The notes beneath the pieces were generated by a model that did not search any database, was not told where the DNA came from, and saw only the letters and a list, made by a program, of their open reading frames with translations. Below, piece by piece: positions 5,621 to 30,406 of a DNA stretch of 64,000 nt. This DNA is from Winogradskyella thalassocola (GTDB lineage Bacteria > Bacteroidota > Bacteroidia > Flavobacteriales > Flavobacteriaceae), in the NCBI RefSeq assembly GCF_900099995.1, contig NZ_FNCZ01000005.1, positions 87,456 through 151,455 of the forward strand. Direction: 5' to 3'. The position numbers were made by a program, and so were the translations under genes. The stretch's first letter is position 1. Each line of letters opens with the position of its first letter.

Positions 5621-6241
5621 TTAATTAAGTAATAATTCCTGTTTTTTTAAATACAGTTCTGTATTGGGGCCTTCATTAAATAAAAGGTCTAAAATACTAA
5701 GATTAGAAATAAATCCATGTTTCTCGCTAAAAACTTGGGTGTAAGGTTCAAAGGTTTTGACTTCAGAATTTCGTTTTACTAAATTTCTATAATCTATTTT
5801 ATCAATAGGCTCTTTTTCAAATAGAGTCGTTTGAACAGGCTTAATGTCCAATTGAAGACTACTAATAAGCACTTCTAAACACTTTAAATTGAAGTCTAAT
5901 ATATAATCAAATTGATTTTCAAATAGCGGCAAAAAGTCATCGATATAAAACTCAAAAAAAGGAGACATGCTATAAGCTGATTGTAGCGACTTTAAATGGA
6001 GGAGTTGCCATTGCTCTTCATTAGCAATCTTCACATCTTTATATAGCTGTCTGTTTTTCTGAGTGTAACTTACAGGGACTGTTAAAGCCAATTTTCCATT
6101 AGCCCCATAAATTTCGGTTCGGTTTCTGTAGGATTGTTTTTGATAATTATCAAAGACTTCAAGATGTATCGAATCGGCATTCACAACAGCCCAAAAATGT
6201 GCAATATTTGGGAAATATGTTGGATGTATAAGGCTATTCAT
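5621..6241 (-). CDS. WbqC family protein
   Basis: The N-terminal HPTYFPNIAHFWAVV and the NRTEIYGANGKLALTVPV segment are the family signature. WbqC-like proteins occur in O-antigen/glycan loci in other phyla and have been linked to lipid or sugar modification, but here the gene is in the conserved flavobacterial lepB neighbourhood. The length, 206 aa, is normal. It starts 38 bp after the lepB stop and is probably cotranscribed. The biochemical role is not established. Confidence 0.88.
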   Translation of the reverse strand: MNSLIHPTYFPNIAHFWAVVNADSIHLEVFDNYQKQSYRNRTEIYGANGKLALTVPVSYTQKNRQLYKDVKIANEEQWQLLHLKSLQSAYSMSPFFEFYIDDFLPLFENQFDYILDFNLKCLEVLISSLQLDIKPVQTTLFEKEPIDKIDYRNLVKRNSEVKTFEPYTQVFSEKHGFISNLSILDLLFNEGPNTELYLKKQELLLN

Positions 6242-26113: not shown

Positions 26114-27475
26114 TTACTTGTTAATATACGTTGTCTTAATATTTACAAAGGCCAACATCCCTTCTTTAGATAATTCTCGACCATATCCTGAAATTTTTGT
26201 GCCACCAAAAGGTAGTCTAGGATCAGATTTTACCATCTCATTGATAAAAAAGCCACCATCTTCAATTTCTGAAATACGCTCTATCGCTGCTTCATAATCT
26301 GCAGTAAAAACCATAGTTCCCAATCCAAATTTAGAATTTGCTGCAGCTTGGTAAGCTTCATCTTCGGTTTTTACTTTCATAATAGCGGCAACGGGTCCAA
26401 ATGTTTCTTCTTTGAATACGGGCATTTCAGTAGTTACTTCGGTTAGAATTGTCGGTTCGTAATAAGCTCCATTTCTTTTATGACCTTTTATGACTTTAGC
26501 TCCTAAATCAATTGATTTTTGAACTTGTTTTTCTAAAGTTTCAGCTAAATCTTCACGAGCCAAACACGATATTGTGGTATCGTCTTCTAGTGGGTTACCG
26601 TATTTTAAATCCTTTACTTTAGATGTGAATCTTTCAATAAAATCATCATAAATATCTTCTACAACTATAAATCGCTTTGCGGCAATACAACTTTGTCCGG
26701 AGTTTTGCATTCTCGCTTTAACGATAGTGTCTATATATTTCTCTAAATCCGCATCTTTTAAAATGATGCAAGCATTATTTCCTCCCAATTCTAAAAGGGA
26801 CGGCTTTAAATTTTTACCGGCAAGCTCTGCTATTTTTCGGCCTGCTTTTTCACTGCCAGTTAAGGAAACTGCTTTTACAATATCATTGCTCATAAGGTCT
26901 TCAATAGTCTCATGATCCGTAACTAGGGTTTGAAAACATCCTTTCGGGAACCCTGCATCTATAAATAGTTTTTCAATAGCAATGGCACAACCCGTAACAT
27001 TAGAAGCGTGTTTTAAAAGTGCCACATTTCCCGCTGTTAATGTCGGAATTGCAAATCTAAATACTTGCCAAAACGGATAATTCCAAGGCATAATAGCTAA
27101 CACACAGCCTAAAGGATCATAACTTATAAAACTCTCGTACGCTTCGGTTTCAATAAGATCATCTTCTAAAAATTGTTCTGCATTTTTGGAATAAAAGTCA
27201 ATAAGATAAGTGCATTTTTCAATTTCAGCTTCACTTTCAAGAATTGGTTTTCCCATTTCTTCAGTCATAAGTTGACTTAAATACTGCTTATTTTTAAATA
27301 CTTCGTTAGCCAAATTTTGTAATAATTCAATACGACCCTCAATTTCAAATTGTTTCCAAGTTTTAAAAGTTGAATCTGCTAATTCAAGTTTATCTTCTAA
27401 TAGGGGTTTTGAATCTTGTTTATAGGTTCCAAGATGATTTCCGTTATAAGGATTGTATGTTTTTATAGATTTCAT
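26114..27475 (-). CDS. NAD(P)-dependent aldehyde dehydrogenase, succinate-semialdehyde type
   Basis: An ALDH superfamily enzyme of 453 aa. The nucleophilic Cys is in NSGQSCIAAKRF (about residue 262), the general base Glu in LELGGNNACIIL, the cofactor region is PWNYPFWQVFR and GSEKAGRK, and PFGGTKISGYGRE is near the end. This length and pattern fit the short GabD/YneI-like succinate-semialdehyde dehydrogenases. The annotated start is ATG at 27475 (MKSIKTYNPYNG). An in-frame upstream ATG adds 13 atypical residues and is unlikely. Confidence 0.9.
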   Translation of the reverse strand: MKSIKTYNPYNGNHLGTYKQDSKPLLEDKLELADSTFKTWKQFEIEGRIELLQNLANEVFKNKQYLSQLMTEEMGKPILESEAEIEKCTYLIDFYSKNAEQFLEDDLIETEAYESFISYDPLGCVLAIMPWNYPFWQVFRFAIPTLTAGNVALLKHASNVTGCAIAIEKLFIDAGFPKGCFQTLVTDHETIEDLMSNDIVKAVSLTGSEKAGRKIAELAGKNLKPSLLELGGNNACIILKDADLEKYIDTIVKARMQNSGQSCIAAKRFIVVEDIYDDFIERFTSKVKDLKYGNPLEDDTTISCLAREDLAETLEKQVQKSIDLGAKVIKGHKRNGAYYEPTILTEVTTEMPVFKEETFGPVAAIMKVKTEDEAYQAAANSKFGLGTMVFTADYEAAIERISEIEDGGFFINEMVKSDPRLPFGGTKISGYGRELSKEGMLAFVNIKTTYINK

Positions 27476-27587
27476 AATAATAAATATATTTTCAAATTTA
27501 AACAGGTTAAGCAAATTGTGTTAGTTCTATTACTTAAATGTTTGACGCTAATAATTAATAGCATTACAGCTAATATCAATATCTAAA

Positions 27588-27622
27588 GAGCTAAGCTTTC
27601 ATTGGGGTTAGATATATCTTTG
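27588..27622 (+). promoter_or_regulatory. Putative stress-type promoter of the ytxH-like operon
   Basis: GAGCTAA at 27588-27594 lies 27 bp (start to start) ahead of TATCTTTG at 27615-27622, which fits the -7 consensus TAnnTTTG. There is no TTG at the housekeeping -33 distance. The same GAGCWAA/27-bp/-7 arrangement occurs ahead of the hemerythrin and DUF1328 genes. Confidence 0.5.
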
Positions 27623-27670
27623 TAATACAGCAACGTGCTGAACATTAAAATTAATAAAAAACATATCATC

Positions 27671-28003
27671 ATGAGTAATAACGGAAATACAGTTTTAGGA
27701 ATATTAGCAGGAACAGCAGTAGGAGCAGTCTTAGGAATTTTATTCGCACCAGATAAAGGTAGCGTCACAAGACAACGAATTGCAGAAGAAGCAGCAACGA
27801 AACGAGACTTAATGGCTGAAAAAGCAACTGAGTTAAGAGATTCTTTAGGTAATACTATTGCATCACAGAAAGAAAATTTAGATCAACAAGTAGACTATAT
27901 TGTTTCTAATGCGAGTTATAAAGCAGAAGATGTGATTACTACACTTGAGTCTAAATTAAAAGACTTAAAAGAAAAGAATAAAACTTTACAGAAAAAAGCA
28001 TAA
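27671..28003 (+). CDS. YtxH domain-containing general stress protein
   Basis: A 110-aa protein with an N-terminal glycine-rich transmembrane segment (GNTVLGILAGTAVGAVLGILFAP) followed by DKGSVTRQRIAEEA and a long charged coiled coil. This is the YtxH pattern (PF12732) of membrane-anchored stress proteins. The start is ATG at 27671; an earlier in-frame ATG (27635) falls just past the promoter and gives an implausible N-terminus. It is the first gene of a compact three-gene unit with a holin-like and a DUF6327-like gene. Confidence 0.85.
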   Translation: MSNNGNTVLGILAGTAVGAVLGILFAPDKGSVTRQRIAEEAATKRDLMAEKATELRDSLGNTIASQKENLDQQVDYIVSNASYKAEDVITTLESKLKDLKEKNKTLQKKA

Positions 28004-28006
28004 TCC

Positions 28007-28354
28007 ATGAGTGTATTTAATGACATAAATCACACCACAGAAAAAGCTTCTCATATTGGTGAGCGCTATATTAGAGCGTCTCACCAATATTTTAAGTTGA
28101 AGATTTTTCAGCAGTTAACCCTTTCACTAAGCTTAGTGACTAAGGTTTTAGCTGTTGGTAGTCTCTTGTTTGCAGGATTAGTTTTCTTGTCTATTGCAGG
28201 AGCTTTAGAATTGGGTAATACTCTAAATAGTTATTCATTGGGATTCTTGTTAGTTGGTCTTATTTACGTAGTGATTTCGATTTTAATCTATTTACTTAGA
28301 GTTAAATTCAATGCGTATATTATAAAGAAAGTTGGACTTAAATTTTTTAATTAA
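28007..28354 (+). CDS. Phage holin superfamily III-like (PF07332-type) membrane protein
   Basis: A 115-aa protein with two strong transmembrane helices (about residues 44-66 and 76-97), a polar N-terminus and a short basic tail. This size and topology fit the putative Actinobacteriophage holin superfamily III/YqjE group, which in bacteria accompanies YtxH-like stress proteins and is not lytic. It starts 3 bp after the ytxH stop and is probably translated from the same message. Confidence 0.7.
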   Translation: MSVFNDINHTTEKASHIGERYIRASHQYFKLKIFQQLTLSLSLVTKVLAVGSLLFAGLVFLSIAGALELGNTLNSYSLGFLLVGLIYVVISILIYLLRVKFNAYIIKKVGLKFFN

Positions 28355-28355
28355 A

Positions 28356-28562
28356 ATGAAAACATATACTACATTTAAAGAAATAGAGAACGATTTAACA
28401 CGTCATAAGTTAGAGCGCGATATTGCTTGGGAGGAACTTAAATTGATTAAAACGGAATATAAACAAGATTTAGAACCTCTGAACTGGATCAGCACAGCCT
28501 TAAAATTAACAGGAAAATACAGTTTTATCGCAATGATTAGAAACTGGCTTTTTAAAAGGTAA
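28356..28562 (+). CDS. DUF6327-like small protein, 68 aa
   Basis: Starting at ATG 28356 (MKTYTTFKEIENDLTRHKLERDIAWEELK), 1 bp after the holin-like stop, this soluble helical protein ends with a weakly hydrophobic helix and a basic FKR tail. It resembles DUF6327 proteins found in the same ytxH/holin context in flavobacteria (from memory). An in-frame ATG at 28332 would overlap the preceding gene and is not preferred. The function is unknown. Confidence 0.65.
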   Translation: MKTYTTFKEIENDLTRHKLERDIAWEELKLIKTEYKQDLEPLNWISTALKLTGKYSFIAMIRNWLFKR

Positions 28563-28806
28563 GTTTGCTTCACCTAAACTTTAGCATTGGCGATCTATCG
28601 AAAGATGCTATTTTCTCTCCAAAATTCTTCAATTAGGCTGTGAAAATTTCCTAGTTTAATAAAGAATAGTCCCTATGTTGTTTGGGCTGATAATAATTTA
28701 TATCAATTTTTTGTTGAATTATGACTTGTTTGCGTCATGTATGTCAATATGTATAAAGCATAACTATAGAAAGACCATGTCATAACAGTTAACTTTTCAA
28801 TTATAT

Positions 28807-28841
28807 GAGCAAATGAGAGTTTGTTTCTATAATTAGCTTTG
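28807..28841 (+). promoter_or_regulatory. Putative stress-type promoter of the hemerythrin gene
   Basis: GAGCAAA (28807-28813), within ATATGAGCAAAT, lies exactly 27 bp ahead of TAGCTTTG (28834-28841). The same 12-mer ATATGAGCAAAT occurs ahead of the DUF1328 gene at the same distance. The rest of the 316-bp gap 28563-28878 holds no gene that I can support. Confidence 0.5.
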
Positions 28842-28878
28842 TTGTGCAACAGTATAAATCAGCCAAAATCAAGTAATT

Positions 28879-29313
28879 ATGAATATATATGAAGCTATTA
28901 GGAAAGATCACGACATTCAACGGGATTTATTGGATAAGTTAGTAGACACCTCTGGTGATACCAAAATACGACACGATTTATTTAAAGAGTTACGTAAAGA
29001 ATTAACGCTTCATGCTAATGCAGAGGAGCGTCATTTTTATAAACCTTTAATTCCTACAGATATGATGCAAGAGCATGCGCGACATGGTATAGCAGAGCAT
29101 CATGAAATTGATGAACTTATTGAGCAGTTAGAAAAAACAGAAATGGATTCATCTGCATGGTTAAAAATTGCGAAAGATTTGAAGCATAAGGTGGAGCATC
29201 ATTTAGAAGATGAAGAACATAGCTTTTTTCAACTATCGGGCAAAGTCTTTAATGAAAAGGAAAAACAGACATTGGCCACCAAATATAATGCTTACATGGA
29301 AGCGCATAGGTAA
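28879..29313 (+). CDS. Hemerythrin HHE domain-containing protein
   Basis: A four-helix HHE protein of 144 aa that should bind a di-iron centre for O2, NO or stress sensing. Candidate ligands are H11 (AIRKDHDIQ), HANAEERHFYKPL (His and Glu), HGIAEHHEID and KVEHHLEDEEHSFF. It has no signal peptide or fused domain. It is alone in its unit, with a terminator right after it, but sits within the 27.6-30.4 kb stress cluster and shares its promoter-like motif. Confidence 0.92.
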   Translation: MNIYEAIRKDHDIQRDLLDKLVDTSGDTKIRHDLFKELRKELTLHANAEERHFYKPLIPTDMMQEHARHGIAEHHEIDELIEQLEKTEMDSSAWLKIAKDLKHKVEHHLEDEEHSFFQLSGKVFNEKEKQTLATKYNAYMEAHR

Positions 29314-29334
29314 CATTAATATACTTAGAATAAG

Positions 29335-29368
29335 AGCTATCTTTTTAATTAAAAGGATAGCTTTTTTT
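29335..29368 (+). terminator. Terminator after the hemerythrin gene
   Basis: An AGCTATC.TTTT / AAAA.GATAGCT stem is followed by seven T, 20 bp after the stop codon. Confidence 0.85.
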
Positions 29369-29477
29369 ATTTCTATAAGACTGATATTCAATAATAGCCA
29401 ATTGTATCAATCATACTTTTCTTAAAATATGTTAAGATTTTAGTCTGTATTTAATTGCGTTAATTTCTTCAGTAATT

Positions 29478-29512
29478 GAATTAATCAACCCTTAATAAGA
29501 TGACTACTTTTG
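29478..29512 (+). promoter_or_regulatory. Putative promoter of the PA2169-like gene
   Basis: TACTTTTG (29505-29512) matches TAnnTTTG. GAATTAA at 29478-29484, exactly 27 bp ahead, matches 5 of 7 positions of the GAGCWAA element seen at three neighbouring stress genes. The evidence is weaker than for those. Confidence 0.35.
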
Positions 29513-29597
29513 AGTATCAATTAGTGCTAATAACACTATCGATGTAAAAAGGTAAGCATCTAACAAAAATTACCTTAAAATTAAAATTCAAAAAAAA

Positions 29598-30047
29598 ATG
29601 GCAACATACACAGAAGAAGTAGGAAATAGACTTAACGGTTTATTAGAGAAAAATTACGATGCAGAAAAAGGGTATACAAAAGCTGCGGAAAACACAAAAC
29701 ATTCCGGCTTAAGAACTTTTTTCAATAGAAAAGCATTAGAAAGAAAAACCTTTGGACACGATCTTAAATCAGAGATTAGAGCTTTTGGACAAGACGTGGA
29801 TAAAGGAGGAAGTTTTACTGGCGCAGCGCATAGAACATGGATGGACGTTAAAGCTATGTTTTCAGCCGATAATGAAGAATCAATGTTAGAGGAAGCTATT
29901 AGAGGTGAAAAAGCGAGTGTAAATGAGTATGATGAGGTATTGCAAGAAGCAAGTTTACCTAGTAGTACAAAATCAATCTTGTTATCACAGAAACATCAAA
30001 TTGAATCGGATTTATCGAAAGTTAAATCTTTAGAGAATTTAAAATAG
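29598..30047 (+). CDS. PA2169/DUF2383 family four-helix-bundle protein
   Basis: A ferritin-like four-helix protein of 149 aa: LNGLLEKNYDAEKGYTKAAE, then LRTFFNRKALERKTFGHDLKSEI, GSFTGAAHRTWMDVKAMF, and EEAIRGEKASVNEYDEVL. This is the TIGR02284/DUF2383 pattern. Members are linked to stress and stationary phase, and their chemistry is not established. It is monocistronic, with a terminator 30 bp downstream. Confidence 0.88.
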   Translation: MATYTEEVGNRLNGLLEKNYDAEKGYTKAAENTKHSGLRTFFNRKALERKTFGHDLKSEIRAFGQDVDKGGSFTGAAHRTWMDVKAMFSADNEESMLEEAIRGEKASVNEYDEVLQEASLPSSTKSILLSQKHQIESDLSKVKSLENLK

Positions 30048-30078
30048 AATTTAAATTCTAAATCTTAAAACAAAAAAG

Positions 30079-30118
30079 AGAGCGTAATCTATATTTTAGA
30101 ATACGCTCTTTTTTTTTG
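30079..30118 (+). terminator. Terminator after the PA2169-like gene
   Basis: A perfect AGAGCGTA / TACGCTCT stem is followed by nine T. Confidence 0.9.
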
Positions 30119-30162
30119 AAAGACTATGAGATCTAGTAATCTGGTTAAGATCAATAGCATAT

Positions 30163-30197
30163 GAGCAAATCTATTACGGAATTATAAGCCATCTTTG
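30163..30197 (+). promoter_or_regulatory. Putative stress-type promoter of the DUF1328 gene
   Basis: GAGCAAA (30163-30169), within ATATGAGCAAAT, lies exactly 27 bp ahead of CATCTTTG (30190-30197), a one-mismatch -7 box. The arrangement repeats that of the hemerythrin gene. Confidence 0.5.
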
Positions 30198-30244: not shown

Positions 30245-30406
30245 ATGTTACGTTGGACAATCACATTCGTTATAATAGCATTAATCGCAGCCGTTCTAGG
30301 ATTCGGAGGAATTGCAGGAGCAGCAGCAGGAATAGCTAAAATCGTCTTCTTTATATTTATAGTACTTTTTGTACTGTCTCTATTAAAAGGGGTGGTAAAG
30401 AAATAA
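30245..30406 (+). CDS. DUF1328 family small membrane protein, 53 aa
   Basis: The protein begins [20 protein letters not shown] and continues [20 protein letters not shown], ending GVVKK. This is the DUF1328 (YtjA-like) family: two hydrophobic helices around a [12 protein letters not shown] hinge. Members are induced by stress in several bacteria and the function is unknown. The ATG and TAA are clear, a shared stress-type promoter motif lies upstream and a terminator follows. Confidence 0.92.

Follow-up and report, generated by a model that had tools for sequence, protein, structure and literature searches.

A 21-bp direct repeat at stress-type promoters of Winogradskyella thalassocola and its relatives, and a probable cupin-AraC activator pair acting on it

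Introduction

What reads a promoter element that is shared by a cluster of stress-type genes and stands where the housekeeping -33 element is missing? The question is raised by a stretch of 64,000 nucleotides (the window) of the flavobacterium Winogradskyella thalassocola (contig NZ_FNCZ01000005.1, positions 87,456 to 151,455, forward strand), in which a preliminary description made from the letters had noted a GAGCWAA motif 27 bp, start to start, ahead of a TAnnTTTG-like box at the promoters of the ytxH operon, a hemerythrin gene and a DUF1328 gene, with a weaker version ahead of a DUF2383 (PA2169-type) gene. It had proposed that an alternative sigma factor or an activator controls these envelope and stress genes as one regulon. 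Here we report that this is a genuine regulatory element of a stress-type regulon, conserved among relatives, and that GAGCWAA is one half of a direct repeat. With a probability of roughly 0.77, judged from sequence comparison, these promoters carry an AraC/XylS-type activator site that would be worked by two cupin-AraC paralogues, A and B, and through which the stress regulon would be controlled.

Results

A direct repeat with its downstream copy over -33

The letters and 27-bp spacings described earlier for the ytxH, hemerythrin, DUF1328 and DUF2383 promoters are all present, as is the 12-mer ATATGAGCAAAT common to the hemerythrin and DUF1328 copies, and the reported absence of a housekeeping -33 TTG holds as well, with 0 TTG found 17-27 bp upstream of these -7 boxes. 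The element as first described is incomplete: GAGCWAA is the downstream copy (R2, GAG[CT][AT]AA) of a direct repeat whose upstream copy (R1, [CG]AG[TC][TC]AA), missed at the time, starts 21 bp earlier. This second upstream block was first recognised by reading the hemerythrin promoters in the loci of relatives. We examined 55 strict sites followed by an open reading frame (ORF), drawn from 78 distinct ones in the loci, many of them orthologous. In 42 of the 55, GYYAA stands exactly 19 bp ahead of R2, while every other offset tried, 5 to 44, has 0-2 cases; the element is therefore a direct repeat. Across 87 diverse sites, the self-similarity of the site matrix (shifts 8-29) peaks at a shift of 21, with 3.09 against 0.77 for the next best shift. 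The same sites avoid A at -27/-26 and -6/-5 (p 5e-9 to 5e-16), positions that are equivalent in both repeats and lie 7-8 bp upstream of the central G.

The full site is found at five window promoters, the fifth of which, on the minus strand at 27527 ahead of an aldehyde dehydrogenase gene, had also been overlooked. In all five, R2 begins 27 bp ahead of the -7 box, ends 20 bp ahead of it and lies over the -33 position; if the sigma-A -7 box is placed at -12 to -5, R2 occupies about -39 to -33, and R1 reaches from about -60 to -54. The spacer between R2 and the box holds almost no information. A TAnnTTTG-type box is present in all sites, so that their -10 element is not distinct from that of sigma-A: TAnnTTTG at -12 to -5 of mapped starts is the normal flavobacterial sigma-A -7 box (PMC9723704).

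The full site is specific within the genome

Window scores quoted here come from the second of two matrices, which has 67 columns and was built from loci of other genomes only (L068-L147), the first having included copies of the window sites. On this matrix the five window promoters score 34.8-41.6 bits, compared with 6.3 bits for the next best place in the window and 19.3 bits for the best place in 9.2 Mb of second-order random sequence. Because the genomes used for training include close relatives, these scores are not fully independent, unlike the agreement among unrelated promoters within one genome, which is.

Genome-wide, the motif pair of the preliminary description occurs above chance, with 8 matches to GAGCWAA-N21-ANNTTTG in the 4.57-Mb genome against 1 and 0 for reversed-pattern controls. 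Three of the eight are the sites already described, two lie just ahead of an mscS gene and a lipoprotein gene, and three (C5:68941, C17:304923 and C18:20864) were taken as chance. The mscS and lipoprotein matches lie 1 kb apart on contig C17, with boxes that end 36 bp upstream of the MscS channel's start codon and 31 bp upstream of that of a 56-aa lipoprotein. In 39 relatives the strict pattern gave 83 matches against 49 for the control, and is therefore only mildly specific by itself. A sequence-only profile of 49 training sites, which include the two C17 sites and none from the window, places the five window promoters, mscS and the lipoprotein gene as its top seven matches in 4.57 Mb (35.3 to 26.0 bits), followed at 22.6 bits by one of the presumed chance matches. 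Stricter filters, at which weak sites are lost, were applied whenever more than 40 genomes were searched.

Sites are conserved ahead of stress-type genes in relatives

We compared 80 named loci around relatives of the window hemerythrin, the best match being that of Winogradskyella pacifica (97% protein identity). The first matrix finds 212 sites above 17 bits in these loci (1.29 Mb), and 65 of the 80 have at least one. A downstream ORF follows 194 of the 212, and by short text matches these genes are mostly DUF1328, YtxH, hemerythrin, DUF2383, aldehyde dehydrogenase and small lipoprotein genes. Some DUF1328 genes have two tandem repeat sites about 160-200 bp apart (L068:10154, L069:10251, L070:10220 and L126:9114, all on the plus strand). 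In 20 further stretches of relatives, sites stand ahead of genes for Pmp3 (PF01679), a PAS-histidine kinase, small membrane proteins, a Dps-looking ferritin-domain protein (PF00210), a ribosome-hibernation-type protein (PF02482) and a YqcI/YcgG protein (PF08892). Judging by gene names, the targets would thus form a general-stress-type gene set.

Weaker matches in the window genome, at 14-21 bits (L174, L175/L181, L176, L177, L180 and L189), are candidates only. The PAS-kinase candidate L177 gains support from genome G005, where a clear site precedes its counterpart (72% identical), and small genes of the L174 and L175 types gain it from relatives in which genes of similar appearance have sites; no such backing from relatives' sites was found for CsbD (L189), the AhpC/TSA gene (L180) or L176. 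Two weaker sites (22.1 and 30.0 bits) face each other in the L180 region (G000:C17:313076-316140), where SDR/aldehyde dehydrogenase genes diverge from AhpC-TSA/YihY-like genes.

An AraC-type gene lies among the target promoters in many relatives

Clustering the 1262 ORFs of the 80 loci gave 50 protein clusters present in at least five loci; the members of one, 76 in number and about 340 aa long, belong to the AraC family. They occur in 51 of the 80 loci, of which 50 are among the 65 with sites and the other is one of the 15 without. Directly before hemerythrin, on the opposite strand, a copy of the gene is found in 38 of the 80. The neighbourhood of these A genes includes target promoters. A representative, AraC-A (L068:6692-7711, minus strand), has the two-HTH DNA-binding domain of the family (PF12833, E 1.7e-17; PF00165, E 1.4e-10). 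Its AlphaFold2 model (pLDDT 82, pTM 0.60) predicts a cupin-like N-terminal domain, the barrel of which resembles the sensor domains of CuxR (Z 10.7), BgaR (10.1), ExsA (9.9) and AraC (9.1), while residues of about 228-340 match AraC-family DNA-binding domains with Z up to 15.5.

The window genome has only paralogue B, which is encoded on contig C16 and is 33% identical to A. The araC-A gene is gone from the window, where the neighbours of that spot stand 316 bp apart; a probable relic of its 5' part aligns with the araC-A gene of W. pacifica at the nucleotide level (Table 1), and tblastn of the AraC-A protein against the relic spot gave no match. The recognition-helix regions of A and B are alike, mostly [AS]K(L/V)QxGFK and SRSYFSKIF. 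Autoregulation was considered and rejected for seven loci (L218-L224), including that of the window genome's B gene, in which no site above 17 bits was found. Three or four AraC paralogues of this family (clades A, C, D and E) lie near the stress cluster in L076, L087, L088, L104, L107, L109, L125, L130 and L135 (e.g. L087:10489-14720).

Sites and A/B-type proteins occur together

Among 60 genomes of the genus, at least two sites were found in 27 of the 29 with an AraC match above 100 bits and in 0 of the 31 without one. If a single site at E 1e-3 or better is taken as enough, the counts are 29/29 and 3/31, the single sites of the three AraC-free genomes being borderline (E 5.6e-4 to 8.1e-4). 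Either paralogue seems to be enough, because site-bearing genomes include some with A and no B match (G002, G045, G047, G049 and G072) and some with B and no A (G000, the window genome, G004, G063, G067 and G070). At DUF1328 promoters, compared for 30 of 40 DUF1328 matches, a site of 16.7-47 bits lies upstream in all 26 genomes with A or B and in none of the 4 without; these four may be one lineage, since in all of them the DUF1328 gene sits about 110 bp after an mscS-like frame.

In a set of 31 named genomes, an A/B-type protein is present in 16 of 16 with cluster sites, 15 of which also have a profile match at E 1e-3; 12 of the 16 are represented in a tree of 102 proteins, G090 and G092 are assigned through the identical G070 and G067, and G097 and G099 by score only. 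The 15 genomes without cluster sites have no profile match (0/15); nine of them lack a homologue and six have a distant one that falls outside clades A and B in the tree. One of the 32 loci considered for the named set, L090, was left out. The genus and named sets overlap, with identical coordinates in, for example, G013/G103 and G070/G090. At family level (100 genomes, one per genus), sites were found in 13 of 29 genomes with a homologue and 1 of 71 without, a looser match than in the genus. An AraC homologue gene stands no more than 10 kb from 15 of 27 sites, these 15 being spread over 9 of 12 genomes (G000 and G115 excluded from this distance count). Since site and AraC group go together, the A/B group is the likely controller.

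Genes behind the window promoters and further neighbours

The promoters and genes of the window are listed in Table 1; ytxH is the apparent first gene of a three-gene operon. Within the stress cluster, a topoisomerase IB gene (PF01028; e.g. L125:8439-9518, plus strand) and an SOS-response associated peptidase (SRAP) gene (e.g. L088:11803-12507, plus strand) each occur in 26 of the 80 loci, and on the minus strand of L130 a gene that looks like the former has a site ahead of it at 5686. A PadR-looking gene often stands beside a PspC-looking protein, in loci with or without sites (L073, L086, L094, L095, L103, L106, L110, L115, L121, L123, L131 and L138). On contig C17, the LytTR gene that neighbours mscS (G000:C17:287540-287821; L165:1483-2280, minus strand) encodes a membrane-type protein and is the lowest-scoring of the 18 LytTR matches in the genome.

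Table 1. Promoter elements carrying the repeat and associated genes in the window (box, -7 box; scores are those of the 67-column matrix).
Feature	Letters	Position	Strand	Remarks
ytxH promoter R1 (upstream repeat)	CAGCTAAT	27567..27574	+	21 bp ahead of R2
ytxH promoter R2	GAGCTAAG	27588..27595	+	whole site 41.6 bits
ytxH promoter -7 box	TATCTTTG	27615..27622	+	27 bp from R2, start to start
Hemerythrin promoter R1	CAGTTAAC	28786..28793	+	21 bp ahead of R2
Hemerythrin promoter R2	GAGCAAAT	28807..28814	+	whole site 35.9 bits
Hemerythrin promoter -7 box	TAGCTTTG	28834..28841	+	27 bp from R2
DUF2383 (PA2169) promoter R1	GCGTTAAT	29457..29464	+	21 bp ahead of R2
DUF2383 promoter R2	GAATTAAT	29478..29485	+	whole site 36.4 bits
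DUF2383 promoter -7 box	TACTTTTG	29505..29512	+	27 bp from R2
DUF1328 promoter R1	TGGTTAAG	30142..30149	+	21 bp ahead of R2
DUF1328 promoter R2	GAGCAAAT	30163..30170	+	whole site 34.8 bits
DUF1328 promoter -7 box	CATCTTTG	30190..30197	+	27 bp from R2
Aldehyde dehydrogenase promoter R1	GCGTCAAA	27541..27548	-	overlooked in the preliminary description
Aldehyde dehydrogenase promoter R2	GAACTAAC	27520..27527	-	whole site 38.3 bits
Aldehyde dehydrogenase promoter -7 box	TAAATTTG	27493..27500	-	27 bp from R2
YtxH-like protein, 110 aa		27671..28003	+	PF12732, E 2.7e-15; ATG 48 bp after box
Small membrane protein, weakly holin-X-like		28007..28354	+	PF07332, E 2e-4, below family cut-off
DUF6327 protein		28356..28562	+	PF19852, E 5.9e-6
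Hemerythrin HHE-domain protein		28879..29313	+	PF01814, E 6.1e-15
DUF2383 (PA2169-type) protein		29598..30047	+	PF09537, E 7.4e-38
DUF1328 small membrane protein		30245..30406	+	PF07043, E 6e-15
Aldehyde dehydrogenase, 453 aa, divergent from ytxH		26114..27475	-	PF00171, E 1.3e-128; ATG 17 bp after box
araC-A 5'-part relic (probable)		28579..28634	-	81% over 58 bp to L068:7582-7637, within W. pacifica araC-A

Discussion

Protein, geometry, linkage and distribution all agree, and an AraC-type reading of the repeat therefore fits. A and B are most likely a new AraC/XylS-type activator pair. In the mechanism that we propose, two cupin-AraC molecules, or a dimer (A in many relatives, B in the window genome), would bind side by side to two direct half-sites with a 21-bp period, which corresponds to two helical turns, with the downstream half-site over -33. 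The downstream molecule would contact region 4 of sigma-A and so replace the absent -33 element, and because of this RNA polymerase would start from the TAnnTTTG box only with the activator on. Binding, activation, the sigma contact and the use of one site by both A and B are what we infer from comparing these sequences. The regulon would comprise, in the window genome, the ytxH operon and the hemerythrin, DUF2383, DUF1328, aldehyde dehydrogenase, MscS channel and small lipoprotein genes, to which Dps-like, ribosome-hibernation and Pmp3 genes would be added in relatives.

The arrangement has precedents among AraC-type activators. XylS and MekR dimers occupy direct-repeat sites with a 21-bp period, TGCA-N6-GGNTA-N6-TGCA-N6-GGNTA (PMC4514859), and an overlap of activator and polymerase sites is stated for the XylS type in the title of a work cited in PMC5481539. 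Our element shares with XylS/Pm and MekR/PmekA the two direct half-sites, the 21-bp period and a candidate two-HTH AraC-type protein, but its half-site letters are those of a box B, [CG]AG[TC][TA]AA, with a weak box A, and, unlike the one catabolic operon of XylS or MekR, it is found at many stress-type promoters with a Bacteroidota-type sigma-A box. At AggR-dependent promoters the activator site stands 21-22 bp upstream of the -10 element; it is presumed to cover -35, with AggR touching domain 4 of sigma (PMC6392122). The end of R2 20 bp upstream of the -7 box is like the spacing at AggR fimbrial promoters, whereas AggR uses a single site and the element here is a tandem repeat.

Several observations weigh against control by A and B. 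An AraC/XylS half-site consists of a box A and a box B, and here the box A part of each half-site is weak, with no strong box A letters. The window genome's sole paralogue, B, is encoded far from the cluster and has no site of its own. The HTH motifs do not cleanly split site-bearing from site-free genomes, some of the latter having similar ones. Distant AraC homologues are carried by 6 of the 15 site-free named genomes, and the A/B split that sets them apart was drawn after the site-free genomes were known, in a quick tree with moderate support (83) for clade B. No strong site was found in 16 of the 29 homologue-bearing genomes of the family set, two of which (G118 and G196) have proteins as close to A as clade-A members are. 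Less strict rescoring gave weak matches in 4 of these 16 against 6 of 16 AraC-free controls, and because the controls score as often, counts at this level say nothing; in three of the four weakly matching genomes, however, a match and the AraC gene are 0.1-6.5 kb apart, and for two of these genomes the distance is no more than about 150 bp. In the homologue-bearing, site-free genomes the site may have drifted, or the homologues may bind something else. Finally, the genomes compared are relatives and not independent, which makes the co-occurrence statistics optimistic.

Control by A and B has to be weighed against other explanations of the repeat. Binding by a LytTR-family response regulator was the reading first favoured once the 21-bp repeat had been recognised. 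R1 presumably resembles LytTR half-sites, such as those of AgrA. The LytTR boxes of HdrR, BrsR and AgrA are likewise direct repeats with a 21-bp period, formed by 9-bp repeats about 12 bp apart (PMC6193735, PMC4847170), and of the 18 LytTR matches in the window genome one (C17:287540) lies about 2.4 kb from the mscS site. The geometry differs, however: in most known cases LytTR repeats stop some 10 bp upstream of -35 (PMC6193735) and those of AgrA centre near -60 (PMC4227749), whereas R2 lies over -33. No site above 12 bits was found in the 18 LytTR loci, taken with 1.5 kb of flank on either side, and no LytTR protein was recognised by eye among the 50 protein clusters. The finding of the AraC gene within the cluster and the position of the site over -33 have weakened this reading, which we now regard as unlikely. 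It is rather improbable, too, that another regulator, for example another AraC-type protein, binds the repeat and that A/B merely marks lineages in which the stress cluster has been kept. AraC-domain proteins of other kinds are numerous in these genomes (matches of about 54-80 bits), and regulator-like genes named by eye recur near the cluster (PadR-looking in 12 loci, response regulators in 8, sensor kinases in 8, CheY-like proteins in 7). The generic AraC matches, however, are present in genomes with and without sites, the PadR-looking gene occurs in 4 of the 15 site-free loci and each of the remaining regulator-like genes in no more than 8 loci; of the groups compared, only A/B both follows the sites and adjoins them.

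The inference of the preliminary description stands in one of its parts and falls in the other. One regulon under an activator agrees with the conservation of the site, its presence before further stress-type genes and its co-occurrence with one regulator family. For an alternative sigma factor, for example of the ECF type, GAGCWAA would serve as the -35 and the TAnnTTTG-like box as the -10 element; in favour of this, R2 lies at a -35-like distance and the housekeeping -33 TTG is absent. Yet the box is the normal sigma-A -7 box, the F. psychrophilum motifs not attributed to sigma-A (SM4-SM6) use other -10 boxes (PMC9723704), and the second copy exactly 21 bp upstream would be left unexplained. 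Given the sigma-A type of the -7 box and the tandem repeat over -33, we reject this reading as very improbable.

The target kinds proposed for A and B (CsbD, Dps, YtxH and ribosome hibernation among them) overlap with those of the sigma-B and sigma-S general stress regulons. Unlike those regulons, the present one would use an activator on sigma-A promoters and no dedicated sigma factor. To our knowledge, sigma-S and sigma-B are absent from Bacteroidota. How stress genes are induced in this phylum without them is poorly known, and the present analysis offers a concrete candidate regulator pair, an exact site and a list of targets. Among the matches listed, we found no description of the element or of a Flavobacteriaceae AraC stress regulator in the open-licence PubMed Central literature, to the extent that its texts were available, and the word AraC is absent from the main text of the one flavobacterial start-site map consulted (PMC9723704).

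The A/B group is thus a likely controller of a shared stress response in marine Flavobacteriaceae. The breadth of such a target set would be unusual for AraC/XylS-type activators. For several DUF proteins, a possible controller can now be named. More tentatively, and at somewhat less than even odds, many Flavobacteriaceae may rely on a ligand-sensing cupin-AraC activator pair at sigma-A promoters, where other bacteria use a dedicated stress sigma factor, to run a general-stress or stationary-phase programme that would take in Dps, ribosome hibernation, CsbD, Pmp3, MscS, hemerythrin, YtxH and further genes.

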